A DNA stretch of 64,000 nt. It comes from Akkermansia muciniphila (GTDB lineage Bacteria > Verrucomicrobiota > Verrucomicrobiia > Verrucomicrobiales > Verrucomicrobiaceae). This document shows positions 1-8,170 of this stretch, in pieces. Within the stretch, counting starts at the first letter, position 1. Each line of letters opens with the position of its first letter. Made by a program: the position numbers and the translations under genes. The notes under the pieces were generated by a model. The model had not been told where the DNA came from. It was given only the letters and a program-made list of their open reading frames with translations, and ran no database searches. Where the stretch lies: assembly GCA_945882215.1 (NCBI GenBank), contig CAMCWM010000002.1, forward strand, positions 1 through 64,000, in the 5' to 3' direction.

Positions 1-116
1 ACCATGCTATTGTCCCCCGCTTCTTTCGAAGTCTCATCCCGTTGCCGGGCCAAGGTTAGGTTGTTGGAGTCATTCATTTTCAGCTAGAATGGCAGGGCTT
101 TCCCTGCGTTCATGAT

Positions 117-518
117 TCACGCCTCACGGCGCACCAAATTATCACAAACCAGAACCGCGGCCCCGGCGACAATGCCGGCGGGGAAGGTCTTGTCGTGGCT
201 GTTACGCAGTCCGAGCACCCAGCAGTAGTCGTTGCTGGATTTCTGGGCGTGGACTTCCATCAGGCCGAAGTAGCGCTGGCCTTCGTGAGACAGCGAGTGT
301 GCCTGCGTGCCGATGCGCAGGTTGGTGGTGGCGAGAGTCTTCTGCACCGTGGTGATAAGCTGATGATGAGGGATCGGACACCAACTGTCGGTATGACGTG
401 GAGTGGATACGGCGCGGACTTCGTCGAGGTCCACATGGGAGGCTCCGCAGTGAAGGGTGAGGTTCGGGCTGCGGCGTGTCGGGGTGACGGGGGCAAGTAG
501 ATCAAAATTGGCAATCAT
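117..518 (-). CDS. DUF932-like phage/plasmid-type protein, short (probably C-terminally truncated)
   Basis: ORF 133 aa; ...LGLRNSHDKTFPAGIVAGAAVLVCDNL resembles the DUF932 core motif, but the ORF stops five residues later. Confidence 0.5.
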   Translation of the reverse strand: MIANFDLLAPVTPTRRSPNLTLHCGASHVDLDEVRAVSTPRHTDSWCPIPHHQLITTVQKTLATTNLRIGTQAHSLSHEGQRYFGLMEVHAQKSSNDYCWVLGLRNSHDKTFPAGIVAGAAVLVCDNLVRREA

Positions 519-545
519 AGTCGTGTGTTCCTTTCTGGAATGAAA

Positions 546-580
546 AAGGGCCGGACACGCAGCGTGCGCATCCGGCCCTG
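546..580 (-). promoter_or_regulatory. intercistronic hairpin + U-tract in leader of the DUF932-like gene
   Basis: GGGCCGGA (548-555) / TCCGGCCC (571-578), minus strand followed by CTTTTTCATTC and GAAAGGA before ATG. Confidence 0.6.
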
Positions 581-598
581 GGTTGAGTGTGTGTTCGG

Positions 599-2035
599 TT
601 ACAGCTTGAGGCCTTGGAGCGTGCGTAATGTGTAGCGCACCGAGTTGAACTCCTTGCTGCTGGTCTTGTGTTCGCGGTGGATGGACTTCAGCTTCAACGA
701 CAGGTCACGCAGGAGGTTGAACCCATCGGTGAACTTGTCCCGGATTTGCAGGGTCAGGTCGATGGCTTCTTCGAGGGCGGATTTGCTGTCGTTGGCGGTT
801 GGTCCTTCAGAGTTTGGAGTCGTGATCATAGGTGTGGTGGGTTGGGGTGGTGTTGGAGGTGGCACTGGCCGGGAAGGCGGCAGAGTCACTGGAGCGGGGG
901 CTGGTTTTGCCGCCTCTTGCGGAGAACCCTCCACAGCGCGCAGTTGCATCACGATCATCTGCCGTCCTTGGCTGTGGAAGCGCAGAGGGGCGGCCTGATC
1001 CATGAGGCTGATGGTGTTGAGACCGTAGTGCAGTGCTTTGATGAGCAGCTTGCGGTTGACGAAGATCGTGATCTCCGGGCCAGTGGCTTGAACATCAGGC
1101 ACTGGCACGCGCAGCCAGGGTTCGGCATGACTGTCTTTGCCGAGCAGCAGGAACTGCCCCTGCCGCCATTCCAGTCCGATGCAGAACAACCGCTCATCGT
1201 GACAGGGCATGCGCTGGATGAGCCGGATGAGCGTGTCCAGTTTGGCCGGGGCGATGGTGATATGGGTTTTGGCAGCATTGGGATTGGGGATGGTGACGCG
1301 CCAGTCAGGATAGTTGCCTTCGATCTGTTTGGCGATGAACCGCCAGCGGCGGCTGCTGAGCTGGACGTGTTTATCATCCGCCTTGAACTGCCATTCACCG
1401 TCCGCGTTGAACTCCCTCCAGCCGAGGAACTTGTGGTTCGGAAGGATGAGGGAGTGTTTCAGCGGCAGCGCGAACGAGTTCGCGCTGTACAGATGCTTGC
1501 CATCCGTGCCGACGATGTAGTTGGCCTTGGGATTGCAAGTGTCGATGAACGTGCCGTTGAGTACGTAACGGCTGCTGTCGATGCTGTCGCAGTCCATCGC
1601 TTCGAGGATCGATTCCCGAACCGCGGCGGGCAGCGGGACAGCGTCTGCCTGGAGGCGCGGTGTCACGGGAAACTCTTCCGGTGCCACGAAGGTCAGCTTC
1701 GATTCGCCAAACTCGTTTCCCAAAGGGAAGCGGATGATGCTGGCTTCAGGACTGGCCTCGACTTCGATGGTCTCGCCCCGGCCGCAGTTTTTAACGACTT
1801 GAGCGAGCTGATCATAAGGAAGCAGCATGGTGGCAGGCGGGCCTGCGGCGGGGTGTTCGAGGCGCATGGTGACGAAGCGGTCGAGATCGGTGCCGGTCAA
1901 GGCGATCCAACCGTCAGCCGTGCGTTCGACTTTGAGGTGATGCAGGACCGGGAGAGTGGCTTTGGCGTTGATCACTTTGCCGAGTCCTGCGAGCGCGGAC
2001 TTCAGTTCCGCGACGGGGAGTGTGATGGGTTGCAT
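599..2035 (-). CDS. DNA polymerase III beta sliding-clamp homolog with C-terminal extension
   Basis: MQPITLPVAELKSALAGLGKVINAKATLPVLHHLKVERTADGWIALTGTDLDRFVTMRL resembles the DnaN N-terminal region; Pro-rich linker and ~70 aa helical tail added. Start placed at internal Met (2035). Confidence 0.75.
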   Translation of the reverse strand: MQPITLPVAELKSALAGLGKVINAKATLPVLHHLKVERTADGWIALTGTDLDRFVTMRLEHPAAGPPATMLLPYDQLAQVVKNCGRGETIEVEASPEASIIRFPLGNEFGESKLTFVAPEEFPVTPRLQADAVPLPAAVRESILEAMDCDSIDSSRYVLNGTFIDTCNPKANYIVGTDGKHLYSANSFALPLKHSLILPNHKFLGWREFNADGEWQFKADDKHVQLSSRRWRFIAKQIEGNYPDWRVTIPNPNAAKTHITIAPAKLDTLIRLIQRMPCHDERLFCIGLEWRQGQFLLLGKDSHAEPWLRVPVPDVQATGPEITIFVNRKLLIKALHYGLNTISLMDQAAPLRFHSQGRQMIVMQLRAVEGSPQEAAKPAPAPVTLPPSRPVPPPTPPQPTTPMITTPNSEGPTANDSKSALEEAIDLTLQIRDKFTDGFNLLRDLSLKLKSIHREHKTSSKEFNSVRYTLRTLQGLKL

Positions 2036-2059
2036 AAGAGGATATGGGGTGAACGCCAG

Positions 2060-2091
2060 CAGCCCATGCACCAATGAAGGCGCATGGGCTG
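2060..2091 (-). promoter_or_regulatory. hairpin in leader of DnaN-like gene
   Basis: perfect 10-bp stem CAGCCCATGC (2060-2069)/GCATGGGCTG (2082-2091). Confidence 0.5.
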
Positions 2092-2109
2092 GCAGCGTGG
2101 TTGGGTTGG

Positions 2110-3177
2110 CTAGGCGGCTGCCTGCATCTCCTCAGCTTTGTATTTGAGCTGGGTGGTGATGCATTCAGCAGCGCGGATGTCCTCACGCGGTCCGAGGTAC
2201 ACTGGCTGGTAGATGGAGCCGGATTCTCGAAACGCGTAGAGGTAGCGGCATTCCACGACGGCTCCGGGGGATGGAATGTCGTGGTTGGATGGGATGGTGA
2301 CGTTGCCAGCAGGGCGCACTTTTTCGTCCTCAAACAAGATCAAGGCGACGCTGCGCTTGTTGTTCGCTTTGGCGACGATAAACGAGGCTGTCTCATAGAA
2401 CTTATGCTTGAGCTGGGTGCCGCCGGAGTTGGGACGACCGGCGATGTAAGGAGCGTCGCTGTGTTTGAAGACAACACCCTCGGCATGGCGCTTCCTGAGT
2501 TGATGGAAGTGCTGTTGTTTCTTCGCCGTGGTGCAGTGGCTTGCCACCAGTTCGATGTGCCGATGCTGGAACGAGGCCAGGAGGTTCATCAAGTGCAGGG
2601 AGCGTTCGCCACAGCGCCGGCCCCGGATGTCATCGTCGGCGATGAACAGGAGATCGAAGGCATGCAGGGTGTCACCAATGGCCTCACCATCCATGAGGAA
2701 ATCCCCAGCACATGCCGAAGCTTCCGCGATGAGGGGTGCTGGCAGCGCGACGGTGAGTCCCAGGCGGTTGATGCCGGTGATGGTGTCGCCCTGCTTGTGG
2801 ATGAGCAGTCGTCGGCCATCCTTCTTCTCCTGCATCCAGTAGGCAGGATCGTGGATGAGCTTTTCCAATTCGTGTGTCTCCACCGGGTTCAACAACTGCG
2901 GCAGAATGCCGGAGCGGACCTTGTCGGTGTGCTGGAGCGGAGCGCTGGCTTCGCCAGCGTGGTAGCCCTTGGCGGTCTTCTCCCGGATGAGCTTGTCGTA
3001 GATGGCTTTGGCGGTCTGATATGCGACCGGCATTGGCGTCTTGCTGCCGGTGTTGAGCGTGGAGCCGCGACGACCATAGGCGAAGTGCACCATGAAGCCG
3101 GCATCCTTGGGTTGGATGCTGGCCTGATACACTTTGTCGGAGGGGCCTTCGCGGAAGTACAGGGTGATGCTTTCCAT
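2110..3177 (-). CDS. WGR domain fused to ATP-dependent DNA ligase
   Basis: N-terminal WGR (YFREGPSDKVYQ...YGRRG); ligase motif I KKDGRR, III FLMDGEAIGDTLHAFDLLF, IV EGVVFKHSDAPYIAGRP, V KHKFYETASFIV. Confidence 0.85.
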   Translation of the reverse strand: MESITLYFREGPSDKVYQASIQPKDAGFMVHFAYGRRGSTLNTGSKTPMPVAYQTAKAIYDKLIREKTAKGYHAGEASAPLQHTDKVRSGILPQLLNPVETHELEKLIHDPAYWMQEKKDGRRLLIHKQGDTITGINRLGLTVALPAPLIAEASACAGDFLMDGEAIGDTLHAFDLLFIADDDIRGRRCGERSLHLMNLLASFQHRHIELVASHCTTAKKQQHFHQLRKRHAEGVVFKHSDAPYIAGRPNSGGTQLKHKFYETASFIVAKANNKRSVALILFEDEKVRPAGNVTIPSNHDIPSPGAVVECRYLYAFRESGSIYQPVYLGPREDIRAAECITTQLKYKAEEMQAAA

Positions 3178-3205
3178 GAGTTGAATGTCCTTTCGTGAAT
3201 GCAAA

Positions 3206-3237
3206 AGAGCCGGATGACCTTGCGATCATCCGGCTCT
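3206..3237 (-). promoter_or_regulatory. hairpin + U-tract in leader of WGR-ligase gene
   Basis: perfect 12-bp stem AGAGCCGGATGA/TCATCCGGCTCT, minus strand followed by TTTTGCATTCACGAAAGGA. Confidence 0.65.
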
Positions 3238-3279
3238 GCTGGGGTTGAGATGTTGGGGTGTGGCTTGAGAGCCGTCGTG

Positions 3280-3798
3280 TTAGTAGTTGTTGTAGGGATC
3301 GCGGCGTTGTTGTTGCTGTTGGCGCATGCGCATGACGAGGATCGAGCGGCCGATGGAGACCAACCCGGCAATGAGGCCGATGACCAGCATGACCGAGAGC
3401 GGTACCAACACGAGGTTGGAGGTCGTCTTGGTGATCAGGTCGATCCAGACGTTGAACTGCTTCAAAGCCAGCGTGACCAGCGGCGCCACCAGCAAGGAGG
3501 GCACCGCCAGCCCGAAGGCCAGCCGCAGGTTGAACTTGAACCACTCTCTGAGCGTTCCCTGCGGTGAGAGCCAGTATTCGAACCGGCGGCAGGTGTAGCT
3601 GATGGTCTCTACGGAGCGTTCAATGGCGCTCAACTGCGGCAGGTCTTGATCAACCTCCGGTTCGGGCAACGGTTCAGGCTGCCATCGACGGATGACGATC
3701 TGGCGCATCTGCTTCGCCCAGGTGGTGGTGGGCACCGTTGGCACCTGCCGATTGAGTGGTGGTTGGGATGGTTCGTCCCAGTCTTCTTGTGGCATCAT
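3280..3798 (-). CDS. hypothetical membrane protein (two predicted TM segments)
   Basis: ORF continuing to 3280; hydrophobic segments FGLAVPSLLVAPLVTLAL and LVLVPLSVMLVIGLIAGLV; start at MMPQEDW. Confidence 0.55.
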   Translation of the reverse strand: MMPQEDWDEPSQPPLNRQVPTVPTTTWAKQMRQIVIRRWQPEPLPEPEVDQDLPQLSAIERSVETISYTCRRFEYWLSPQGTLREWFKFNLRLAFGLAVPSLLVAPLVTLALKQFNVWIDLITKTTSNLVLVPLSVMLVIGLIAGLVSIGRSILVMRMRQQQQQRRDPYNNY

Positions 3799-4054
3799 AG
3801 TGTTGACGTGTTTTGGCCCCGAGGGCCGTTCCGATGACAAACAACAACACGCAGCCCAGCGCGAGAGTGCCGGTGGCAACTTCCCAGCGGTTGGTGGTGG
3901 CGTGTTGTTCCGATATTTGCTCTTCGAGCTTGGTGATCTTGGCGCGGTACTCCGGACCTAGATCCGGCGGTGGGGGTGGCGGATCTTTGAAGAACCAGCC
4001 TGCATAGGCCGCCGGTGAGAGCAGCAGGCAGGCAACGAGGATGAGATGTTTCAT
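3674..4054 (-). CDS. small secreted/membrane protein with signal peptide, Pro stretch, coiled coil and TM
   Basis: MKHLILVACLLLSPAAYAGWFFKDPPPPPPDLGPEYRAKITKLEEQI...GTLALGCVLLFVIGTAL; overlaps the next gene out of frame. Confidence 0.5.
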   Translation of the reverse strand: MKHLILVACLLLSPAAYAGWFFKDPPPPPPDLGPEYRAKITKLEEQISEQHATTNRWEVATGTLALGCVLLFVIGTALGAKTRQHYDATRRLGRTIPTTTQSAGANGAHHHLGEADAPDRHPSMAA

Positions 4055-4087
4055 AAATGAGGGTGGGTGATGGGTTGAGAGGCGGGA

Positions 4088-4906
4088 TTAATGCCATAGG
4101 CGGCATTCGTTGATGAACTCGCAGCTTGAGCAGTGCATCCCAGGCGAAGGGATGAAGTGCTGGCGCTGGAGGCCGTCGAGGTAGGCTTCCATTTGCTTGA
4201 ACAGCCGTGTTTGCTGTTGAGGGCTCATGGAAGGCATCAAGGTGATCACGATCTTGGGGTTCTTGAGTTTGACCAGATGATGGAGCTGGATGCCGGCCTC
4301 GTTGCCGCCGGTGTTGTGGCGGTAGAGGATGGCGTAGCTGCTGGTCTGGATCTCGTTGGTGTGAGCGACCTTTTCTGCATTGGGGGTGCTGGCGCTGGTC
4401 TTGTAGTCGATGACCTGGCGGCGTTGAACCAGATCAAGGATGCCGATCAATCGCGGTAAACCATGGCGGGCCAGGTCAGCTTCAACCGGGACTTCCACGG
4501 CATCAGGTTTGACGTCTGCCGGGAGGTGGCTCTCGCGCAGGTAGGTGTCGAGCAGACGCCAGCCGGTGGTTTTCTCGTCCTCCTCCTCCCCGGCCTTCCA
4601 GGACACTGTGCCTTCTTCGGTATCCGCCCAGGCTGCTGTATAGGCATCGTGAGCCTGTTTGAGCGAGAGCGGTTGTTGCAGCCAGCGTGCCTTGTTCCAG
4701 GCCTTCAACACGGCGTGAACCGCATTGCCGAGATGGAGTGCGGGCGTTTTGGCTTTCTTGAGCCTGAGCACGTAGCGGAAGAAGAACTTCAACCGGCATT
4801 GCAGGAACAGGGACAGCCGTGAGGCCGAGACCTTTTCCTGCAAGCCGGCGATGATGTCTTCCATGCTGGGCTCAGTTTGGGGTGGAGCTTCAGCGACGAT
4901 GTTCAT
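4088..4906 (-). CDS. PD-(D/E)XK nuclease, RecB/AddB/Cas4-like, with putative Fe-S cysteines
   Basis: SASRLSLFLQCRLKFFFRYV..., VIDYKTS motif, C-terminal CSSCEFINEC (Cx2Cx5C) plus upstream Cys. Confidence 0.8.
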   Translation of the reverse strand: MNIVAEAPPQTEPSMEDIIAGLQEKVSASRLSLFLQCRLKFFFRYVLRLKKAKTPALHLGNAVHAVLKAWNKARWLQQPLSLKQAHDAYTAAWADTEEGTVSWKAGEEEDEKTTGWRLLDTYLRESHLPADVKPDAVEVPVEADLARHGLPRLIGILDLVQRRQVIDYKTSASTPNAEKVAHTNEIQTSSYAILYRHNTGGNEAGIQLHHLVKLKNPKIVITLMPSMSPQQQTRLFKQMEAYLDGLQRQHFIPSPGMHCSSCEFINECRLWH

Positions 4907-5412
4907 GCTGCTTGGGAGGCTTGATGTTGTGATTGCCAGCGGTTCTGGCGGGCGGGTTTGCCGGCTTTGACCAGCAGGTCCTCGATGAGCTGCGAAGCCT
5001 GCATCTTGTTGAGCTGCTTCACATCCATGTGGAACAACATCTGGGAGAGGTTTTCCGCCTCATCCTTGTCCATCTTGTTGTCGTGGATGATGCGCTGGAT
5101 GAACGATTGCTGGCCGACGGTGCAGTTCCAGCGCTCGTTCTTGATCTGATAGATGCGGCCGTTGCCATTGCTGTGCCCGCTGCCGTTGCTGTGACCATTG
5201 CGATTGCTCTGATCGTTGGCTTGGGGAACGAAGCCTGGGTGTTGGATTTCCTGGTCAACGGCGTGCTGCAGCAGCGCGTAAAGCTGCTGAACTTCCGCTT
5301 GGACCTGGGTGATGTCGGTGAGTTCGATCTCGACCGACGCGCTGAAGCTGTGGCTGCTGTATTGCGGCAGGCCGAGTTTTTTGCTGTAGTTGGCGCTGAG
5401 TTTGATGGCCAT
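4903..5412 (-). CDS. hypothetical mobile-element protein with NGHSNGSG-type linker
   Basis: ORF with stop/start overlap (ATGA) with the nuclease gene; RBS-like AGGAGGA upstream of ATG. Confidence 0.6.
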   Translation of the reverse strand: MAIKLSANYSKKLGLPQYSSHSFSASVEIELTDITQVQAEVQQLYALLQHAVDQEIQHPGFVPQANDQSNRNGHSNGSGHSNGNGRIYQIKNERWNCTVGQQSFIQRIIHDNKMDKDEAENLSQMLFHMDVKQLNKMQASQLIEDLLVKAGKPARQNRWQSQHQASQAA

Positions 5413-5491
5413 GATGATGTCCTCCTTGGGATGTGTGTTGGATGTGGTGTGGATTGACGTGAGCAGCCGTCACGAAGCCCGCCAACAAAAC

Positions 5492-5520
5492 ACCCGGCCC
5501 TCGTTAGAGAGACCGGGCGT
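5492..5520 (-). terminator. possible hairpin terminator/leader
   Basis: CCCGG...CCGGG with GTGTTTTGTT on the minus strand. Confidence 0.35.
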
Positions 5521-5554
5521 AAGGTTGGCAGGAAGGCAGTGGCGGCGTGGTGGA

Positions 5555-5767
5555 CTAGCGGGTGGTGCCAGCCTCTTGAGTGCGGCCCTGAGCCGGGACG
5601 CTCATCTGCGCGGTCGCGATGTTCCAAGCCTCGGTGCCGTGCAGGCAGGAGGTGAGGAGTTCGTTGACCAGCCGTGTCATGGGCCGGCGCAGCCGCCGGC
5701 GTTCATGGTACAGAGCGCAGATGATGACCCGGTCGATGCAGGGCGAATAATGGGTTCGCCTTGGCAT
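5555..5767 (-). CDS. small hypothetical protein
   Basis: 70 aa ORF collinear with the element genes; weak support. Confidence 0.35.
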   Translation of the reverse strand: MPRRTHYSPCIDRVIICALYHERRRLRRPMTRLVNELLTSCLHGTEAWNIATAQMSVPAQGRTQEAGTTR

Positions 5768-6031
5768 GATGGTGGATGAAAGCAGCCGGGAATAAACCCT
5801 AGCGTCTCAAATTCCTATAACGCGGATGGGTGGGAAATTGCAGGCGTCTGCACGAGCCAGAAGGCAATTTTGAGCCATGAGAAAGAATGCACGCTCAAGC
5901 AACCCACGGCACCGAACGTAGATGCACACAGCGGCGAAGTTTGAGGTAGCGGGATCATGCCAAAAAATGGCTGAGAAATGGCAGACGAAAATATATTAAC
6001 ATCCAATCTTTCTGCAATATTTTCCACGTAA

Positions 6032-6050
6032 CTCTTTGAACCTCAAAGAG
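6032..6050. repeat. perfect inverted repeat abutting tRNA 3' remnant
   Basis: CTCTTTGA-ACC-TCAAAGAG, ends one base before TGG (CCA complement). Confidence 0.7.
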
Positions 6051-6097
6051 TGGTGCTCGGGAAGGGACTCGAACCCTTAAGCCTTTCGGCACAAGAT
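6051..6097 (-). other. tRNA 3'-end remnant (class II tRNA, probably Leu or Ser), candidate att site
   Basis: minus strand ATCTTGTGCCGAAAGGCTTAAGGGTTCGAGTCCCTTCCCGAGCACCA: variable-arm hairpin GCC-GAAA-GGC, T-arm AAGGG-TTCGAGT-CCCTT, acceptor 3' strand plus CCA; the 5' half is absent. Confidence 0.75.
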
Positions 6098-7099
6098 CCC
6101 GCGTCGTGGACCGAGCGCTTCAACAGCCAGGGACCAGAATGGCAGGCCCCCGGCATCGGCGAGACCTTGGAACGCAATCCCGACGGCAAAAAGCCCGTCA
6201 TGGGCGGCAACACCTTCGTCATCGTGGCGGCGGATGGCAATGACATGGTGCATTCTGATGGCAAAACGGCCGCGAAGGCATGCGAACTCATCGCGAAGCA
6301 CTCGAAGGAACCGTTTTTTCTCGCTGTCGGCTACGTGCGACCGCATGTGCCCTTCGTCGCGCCGAAGAGGTATTTCAACCTGTATCCGTGGGAGCAGATG
6401 ACGCTGCCTGAGAAGGTGCCCGGTGATTGGGACGACATCCCGAAGCCCGGCATCAACTACAAGACCAGCGTGAACATGCAGATGGACGTCACACGGCAAA
6501 AGAAAGCCGTCTCCGGCTACTATGCCGCCGTGAGCTTCATGGACGCGCAAGTCGGCAAGGTGCTCGATGCGCTCGAAAAATCCGGCCAGGCTGACAACAC
6601 CATCATCATCTTCACCAGCGACCACGGCTTCCACCTCGGCGAGCACGATTTCTGGGCTAAAGTCAGCCTGCACGACGAATCAGCCCGCGTACCGCTCATC
6701 ATCAGCGTGCCCGGCAAAAAGCCCGGCGTGAGCGATTCGCTCGTCGAACTGCTCGACCTCTACCCCACCACCGCGAAGCTCTGCGGTCTCGACGTTCCCG
6801 CGCGACTGCAGGGCAAGGACATCGGCCCCATCCTCGACGATCCGCAGGCCAAAGTGCACGACACCGTCTTCAGCGTCGCCGGCACGAGCAAGGGCCTCAT
6901 GCTGCGCGACGAGCGCTGGGTCTTCATTCAATACACTGAAGACTCATCAAAAGGCATGGAGCTCTTCGACATGCACAACGATCCGAAACAGCTCACTAAC
7001 CTCGCTTCATCACCCGACCACGTTTCCCGTGTCGAGGAGTGGAAAGCGAAGATCACCGCTAAATTGTTGGCGATACGCGCGAACGACCTCGGCAACTGA
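6095..7099 (+). pseudogene. sulfatase, 5' truncated (iduronate-2-sulfatase-like)
   Basis: sulfatase homology begins at DPASWTERFNSQGPEW...; IIIFTSDHGFHLGEHDFWAK present; N-terminal catalytic Cys region missing. Confidence 0.8.
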
Positions 7100-7111: not shown

Positions 7112-8170
7112 ATGAAAACATTGCTCACCCTTCTCTGCCTCGCCACATCTGCCTTTGCCGGGCCGACCATCGTCTATGTCTCCGAAAGCGGCGAAAAACG
7201 TATCGCCATCTGGTCGCTGGATGAATCGTCCGGCGAATTGACACGCAAGGGCGAAGCGCCGCTGCCTGGAGCACCGGGCAGCCTTTCCATCAGTCCGGAT
7301 CGCAAGCATTTGTATGCCTCCGTGCGCTCCGCGAAGCAGTTCGCCACGCTCGATGTCGATCCAAAATCCGGGGCGCTCTCGAATCCCACCTTCGCCGACG
7401 CAGGCTTCAATGCGGCCTACGTTTTCGCCGACAAAACAGGCCGCTGGCTGCTCGCGGCGTCCTACAGCGAGGGCGTGGTCGGCTTGTCCGCGATCAAAGA
7501 GGGCCGCGTTGAAGGTCCACCCGTCGTCACGCTCGAAACGGGCAAGAAGGCGCACTGCATCCAGGTCGATCCGGCGAACAAGTTCGCCTTCGTGCCGCAT
7601 GTCGGTGAATTGAACAAGGTCGAGCAACTCCGCTTCGACGCGGAAGCCGGAACACTCACACGCAACACGCCGCCGCATCTCCCCGGCGGCGAGGGAGAAG
7701 GGCCGCGGCACATGCAGTTTCACCCGAACGGCAAATGGGCCTACTTCGTGAACGAGCAGGGCAAAAGCGTGACGCTGTGTGATTACGATGCCGCCAATGG
7801 CACGCTCAAAGCCCGCCAAAGCGTGCCCACCGTGCCCGAGGACTGGCGTGACAAAGGCTCCTGCGCCGACATCCACGTCAGTGCCGATGGTCGCTTCGTC
7901 TATGCCTCGAATCGCGGTCACGACAGCCTCGCTGTGTTCTCTGTGAATGCGCAAACCGGCGAACTGACCGCGCACGGCCAGACACCAACGGAAAAGACCC
8001 CGCGTTCCTTCTGCCTCGTGCCTGGCGATCAGTTCGTCGTGTCCGCTGGTGAAGGATCACACAAGCTCATCGTCTTCCGCCGCAACGCCGAAACCGGCGC
8101 TCTCACGCCGCTCAAAACCTACGACTGTGGCAAGGGCCCCGCGTGGGTCATGAGCGTAAAGTTCGACTGA
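7112..8170 (+). CDS. 6-phosphogluconolactonase-type beta-propeller lactonase, secreted
   Basis: signal peptide; PGSLSISPDRKHLYAS, GEGEGPRHMQFHPNGKWAYFVNE, YASNRGHDSLAVF lactonase motifs. Confidence 0.85.
   Translation: MKTLLTLLCLATSAFAGPTIVYVSESGEKRIAIWSLDESSGELTRKGEAPLPGAPGSLSISPDRKHLYASVRSAKQFATLDVDPKSGALSNPTFADAGFNAAYVFADKTGRWLLAASYSEGVVGLSAIKEGRVEGPPVVTLETGKKAHCIQVDPANKFAFVPHVGELNKVEQLRFDAEAGTLTRNTPPHLPGGEGEGPRHMQFHPNGKWAYFVNEQGKSVTLCDYDAANGTLKARQSVPTVPEDWRDKGSCADIHVSADGRFVYASNRGHDSLAVFSVNAQTGELTAHGQTPTEKTPRSFCLVPGDQFVVSAGEGSHKLIVFRRNAETGALTPLKTYDCGKGPAWVMSVKFD

Follow-up and report, generated by a model that had tools for sequence, protein, structure and literature searches.

Integration at secondary sites has mostly been observed in the laboratory, in strains without the primary site of the element concerned. 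The primary site of ICEBs1 of Bacillus subtilis, located in a tRNA-Leu gene, is a stem-loop of 17 bp whose spacer measures 7 bp; when this attB is deleted the element enters secondary sites, mostly in protein genes, that carry 2-12 mismatches (PMC3715440). With attB available, use of the best secondary site reaches about 1e-4 to 1e-3 of the primary rate. ICEBs1 excises from secondary sites poorly or not at all, and its two junctions may have different spacers (PMC3715440). A second chromosomal attB, partly identical to the primary one, has also been described for Salmonella genomic island 1, SGI1 (PMC2297512), and islands residing in tRNA genes, including those of the anticodon (A) sublocation, are catalogued in Islander (PMC4383910).

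The locus described here, in which a sulfatase gene is interrupted by an element carrying part of a tRNA-Leu(AAG) gene, shares features with each of these systems. As with ICEBs1, a tRNA-Leu gene is the normal target, the secondary site lies in a protein gene, and differing spacers are possible; the ICEBs1 events, however, were selected in the laboratory, mostly in attB-less recipients, whereas the sulfatase event is natural, the primary site is present, and no conjugation gene occurs among the proteins scanned from the assembled ends of the element. SGI1 likewise relies on a tyrosine integrase that uses a second site partly identical to the primary one, but there the end of thdF (trmE), not a tRNA gene, serves as primary site and the second site is intergenic. 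With Islander islands the element has in common a tyrosine integrase encoded inside it, an attP with the 3' part of a tRNA, and crossover in the anticodon loop. Related elements of the genus fit the Islander pattern fully, and those in genomes G016, G022 and G023 lie between an intact tRNA gene and a displaced fragment; the sulfatase copy does not, so a search built on that principle would miss it. The reading favoured here, at a probability of about 0.93, is that a tyrosine-integrase element, its attP containing the 3' half of tRNA-Leu(AAG), entered the sulfatase gene at a secondary attB through conservative site-specific recombination. The process is a known one, of which this locus is a natural and unusually complete example; a literature search found no earlier report of such integration in Verrucomicrobia.

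The window, the whole stretch of 64,000 bases that was analysed, represents bases 1-64000 of contig C2 (88,903 bp) in a Verrucomicrobiaceae metagenome-assembled genome (G000) of 6.2 Mb and 391 contigs. The start of C2 falls within the element, so that all sequence left of about 6050 is element sequence (Table 1). ARAGORN found no complete tRNA in the window. A sequence-only reading of this DNA had placed a tRNA 3' half, extending to 6097, on the minus strand beside a sulfatase gene cut at its N-terminus. Both are there: the fragment matches one intact tRNA-Leu(AAG) gene of the same genome without mismatch, and the sulfatase remnant adjoins it directly on the right. The match runs past the proposed end, however, to 6099, thereby taking in the 3' side of the anticodon stem, some of the loop and also the final base of the anticodon, and beyond CCA the identity to the tRNA region continues for 2 bp (6049-6050). 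The hexamer CAAGAT (6092-6097) had been thought to serve both tRNA and sulfatase; its GAT does so, but CAA (6092-6094) is tRNA and not a Gln codon of the sulfatase, because homologues read Gly-Ala-Asp-Asp-Pro-Ala-Ser-Trp-Thr-Glu across the junction, with Asp-Asp-Pro corresponding to GAC GAT CCC. The shared sequence is GATCC, and the junction reads GGCACAA-GATCC-CGCGTCG.

Table 1. Features of the interrupted sulfatase locus and its element; positions refer to the window unless a contig is named.
Feature	Position	Strand	Basis or remark
Integrated element, left end	1..6048	.	Collinearity and DNA identity to element ends of relatives
Sliding-clamp-like (DNA polymerase III beta) protein	599..2074	-	Pfam DNA_pol3_beta below curated cutoff; PHROG 947, E 2e-26
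Protein with WGR domain and ATP-dependent DNA ligase domain	2110..3204	-	Pfam; PHROG 114
PD-(D/E)XK nuclease	4088..4906	-	Pfam PF12705, E 6e-32
Hairpin, 9-bp arms and 3-bp loop, against the CCA end, followed by TTACG	6031..6051	-	Like the hairpin in G022
tRNA-Leu(AAG) 3' part, nucleotides 37-85, in hybrid attL	6051..6099	-	100% identity to G000:C170:3998-4082
GATCC, recombination point	6095..6099	.	Sole contiguous sequence common to attP and sulfatase site at the crossover; at both junctions
Interrupted sulfatase, C-terminal 334 codons	6095..7099	+	Pfam Sulfatase
Host 7-bladed lactonase gene, downstream of the sulfatase	7112..8170	+	97% identical and collinear in uninterrupted locus L035; synteny marker
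Interrupted sulfatase, N-terminal part	G000:C93:7438-7899 (outside window)	-	Search and sequence
Second GATCC copy	G000:C93:7442-7446
Tyrosine integrase, 486 aa	G000:C93:5941-7401		Pfam Phage_integrase E 9e-9; PHROG integrase

The missing 5' end of the sulfatase, which the sequence-only reading had suggested looking for along with an intact tRNA, lies on contig C93, where a conserved N-terminal sulfatase query finds a 94% match (C93:7447-7803). This fragment is cut at the reciprocal point, ends in GATCCTTAGTCT and adjoins the integrase gene: the sulfatase frame runs to GAG GCG GAC GAT CCT TAG, the junction reads GCGGAC-GATCC-TTAGTCT, and the integrase begins about 40 bp later. When the host flanks are joined in silico they form one continuous open sulfatase frame, and the element ends, joined in the same way, yield an attP identical to the tRNA-Leu(AAG) region and 2 downstream bases (58 bp, 0 mismatches). 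Each junction is the exact reciprocal of the other, no base having been lost or gained, and each is a hybrid of attP and a chromosomal site other than the primary one, as is characteristic of a secondary-site integrant. Together with the intact tRNA and the sulfatase N-terminus, they support the earlier proposal that an attP bearing a tRNA 3' end had recombined at a secondary site in the sulfatase. In locus L035 of a related genome (UBA11399), the counterparts of the upstream sulfatase and N-terminal part seen on C93 lie next to those of the C-terminal part, the lactonase and the next sulfatase seen in the window, in the same order and without interruption.

Counted against this reading is that C2 and C93 are linked through their junctions and by comparison to relatives, not by one contig. 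Both contigs end within the element and the metagenome assembly is fragmented, circumstances in which tRNA-bearing element ends might have been joined artificially to a sulfatase during assembly or binning. Such a chimera is nonetheless extremely improbable, since two independent and complementary fusions would be needed on two separate contigs whose junctions are exactly reciprocal at GATCC, a sequence that at 5 bp is too short for a typical assembly fusion, and since both junctions restore known sequences (the 58-bp tRNA match and the open sulfatase frame), as random chimeras would not. The presence of GATCC on both sides of the element could also be ascribed to DDE-type transposition with a 5-bp target duplication. 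Transposition was rejected, and is hardly conceivable, because the element ends joined through one GATCC recreate a continuous tRNA, which it would not explain; furthermore, the gene at the end encodes a tyrosine integrase, homologous elements end at tRNA genes, and neither a transposase nor terminal inverted repeats were seen at the two assembled element ends.

Set in register with the anticodon stem-loop, the tRNA core CAAGA-TCCTTAG-TCTTG and the sulfatase site GACGA-TCCCGCG-TCGTG are identical at 11 of 17 positions and differ at 6. In the latter, ACGA and TCGT form a perfect 4-bp inverted repeat, in the same register, that encloses a 7-bp spacer. Among 368 background GATCC sites drawn from 159 kb of the same genome, 15 match the core as well and two carry the repeat, while none combines both; the corresponding sites in homologous sulfatases have 6-8 mismatches. 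These comparisons support viewing the sulfatase site as a weak attB mimic, although the resemblance alone is not proof, and its modest extent beyond GATCC is counted against secondary-site integration.

The left end of the element is assigned by comparison with relatives. Between 135 and 5870 the window is collinear at the protein level with the left end of the G023 island, which adjoins an intact tRNA-Leu(TAG) gene, and between 5401 and 5843 it has about 80% DNA identity to element ends adjoining intact tRNA-Tyr, tRNA-Arg(ACG) and tRNA-Leu(TAG) genes. At the C93 side, the gene expected next inward on the model of G023 has no match in the genome, and the middle of the element was not recovered. 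A 20-mer spanning the core occurs only once in the genome, on C170, and the assembly accordingly contains no attP circle or tandem copy. The hairpin at the CCA end had been described as a perfect 8-bp inverted repeat (6032-6050); the repeat is real but larger, with 9-bp arms at 6031-6039 and 6043-6051. It belongs to the left end of the element, as judged from sequence comparison: the G022 element in tRNA-Leu(AAG) has a like hairpin and TTACG after CCA (CTCCTTGAATTACAAGGAG-TTACG, as compared with CTCTTTGAGGTTCAAAGAG-TTACG in the sulfatase-borne element). In addition to the genes of Table 1, of which the PD-(D/E)XK nuclease has homologues in 24 of 47 other genomes of the genus, the element encodes a 62-aa AlpA/excisionase-like helix-turn-helix protein and a DUF3987 helicase/primase-like protein. 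Among the proteins scanned, from the assembled element ends and the relatives sampled, there are no capsid, terminase or conjugation genes, and the element is treated here as an integrative island. The DUF3987 gene (G000:C93, L135, 1784-3395) seems to be divided between two overlapping frames at a seven-G run, through either a frameshift or a sequence error.

Homologues of the integrase occur in 25 other genomes of the genus, the HxLR and C-terminal Tyr motifs are conserved in relatives, and the DNA upstream of 26 integrase relatives (38-61% identity) adjoins a tRNA 3' half in every case, in the same orientation and cut at the anticodon loop; only the C93 copy has a protein gene at this end. 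The tRNA targets, some confirmed by ARAGORN and the remainder read from anticodon loops, include Arg(ACG), Leu(TAG), Leu(AAG), Tyr, Thr, Gln, Lys, Met-type and others. Three relatives are complete between an intact tRNA gene and its 3' repeat, namely an island of about 29 kb in tRNA-Arg(ACG) of G016, an element of about 4.3 kb in tRNA-Leu(AAG) of G022, and an island of about 71 kb in tRNA-Leu(TAG) of G023, both ends of which are collinear with the two ends of the sulfatase-borne element. Related elements in tRNA-Leu genes, which the sequence-only reading had suggested seeking, are those of G022 and G023. The integrase, the PD-(D/E)XK nuclease and the ligase were scanned against IMG/VR, which returned only one short, weak integrase match. 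With the sulfatase occupied and tRNA-Leu(AAG) free, the sulfatase might be supposed to have become the regular target of this integrase lineage, leaving the tRNA sequence in attP as a relic. Such a switch of target is most improbable, given that attP matches the tRNA perfectly over 58 bp but the sulfatase at only 11 of 17 core positions, and that in none of the other genomes examined does the element occupy this sulfatase, the closest homologues being intact.

Several other arrangements were encountered among the relatives. In G017:C426 (L215, 1400-1950) and G002:C239 (L216, 1316-1720), which represent two further species, a tRNA-Leu(AAG) 3' half is fused to a common sequence of about 350 bp, 93% identical between the two, with no tRNA 5' half or integrase at the fusion; in G017 the fusion adjoins a left end of this element family, and these are possibly another ectopic or decayed junction. 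The 29-kb tRNA-Arg island of G016:C2 (L187, 15764-19975; L188, 855-16715) houses a large putative defence cluster with a DpdE/DrmD-like helicase, a DrmMI/type IIG methyltransferase-like protein and other long ORFs. In G012:C67 (L189, 2300-2840) and in G023:C7 near 91.8 kb (L142), left-end-like sequence immediately precedes a tRNA remnant and integrase, which suggests elements in tandem, or a circular form that was assembled, at one and the same tRNA.

The primary site in the genome is unoccupied. The sole intact copy of tRNA-Leu(AAG) found there (Table 1) has ordinary genes on either side in the order seen in relatives, with the same downstream gene at about the same distance in G004, and the tRNA is conserved across the genomes of the genus that were searched. 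A tRNA-Leu with anticodon AAG is unusual in bacteria and implies A34 or inosine wobble. That the primary site is free leaves the cause for use of a secondary site not obvious, and this too is counted against the main reading. In G012:C69 (L220, 1450-3720) a near-complete but damaged second tRNA-Leu copy lies 2.1 kb beyond an intact tRNA-Leu(AAG), and the gene usually found downstream sits about 17 kb away; in several species tRNA-Leu(AAG) seems to be a hotspot of integration.

Under the preferred reading of secondary-site integration, the normal target would be the anticodon loop of the tRNA-Leu(AAG) gene, whose 3' half attP carries, and attP would have recombined conservatively with the secondary attB in the sulfatase. 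Crossover would fall in or beside GATCC, inside the 7-bp spacer between short inverted arms, an arrangement that mimics the anticodon stem-loop, and would generate an attL in the window (tRNA 3' half with the C-terminal part of the sulfatase) and an attR on C93 (N-terminal part of the sulfatase with the integrase arm). The 486-aa integrase presumably catalysed the event, and the 7-bp spacer is the probable overlap region. Because the spacers differ at 3 of 7 positions (TTA versus CGC), excision would yield a mismatched attP and, by analogy with ICEBs1, is probably impaired, leaving the element poorly able to depart; this would explain the persistence of the insertion despite a free tRNA.

Each sulfatase fragment is without frameshifts or stops, consistent with a recent insertion. 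The active-site motif CGPSRAS is located on the N-terminal fragment, parted from the remaining catalytic domain on the other, and the cut sulfatase is thus almost certainly inactive, to judge from its sequence. Its loss is probably tolerated, given the dozens of sulfatase-like matches in the genome. Insertions of phage elements act as reversible switches of comK or sigK. Were the present insertion such a switch, with excision restoring the sulfatase, the element would control a polysaccharide-degrading enzyme; very little likelihood is attached to this, or to the idea that the integrase lineage is in the act of shifting from tRNA genes to a protein gene.

Cases of this kind will escape island finders that need a tRNA and fragment pair. 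The locus provides, from an environmental genome, a case in which the primary site is present, both junctions are recovered, and tRNA-targeting relatives are at hand for comparison. It shows the traces that ectopic events leave and how loosely an integrase family reads its target, and with one integrase family directed to many tRNA targets within one genus, retargeting becomes directly testable.
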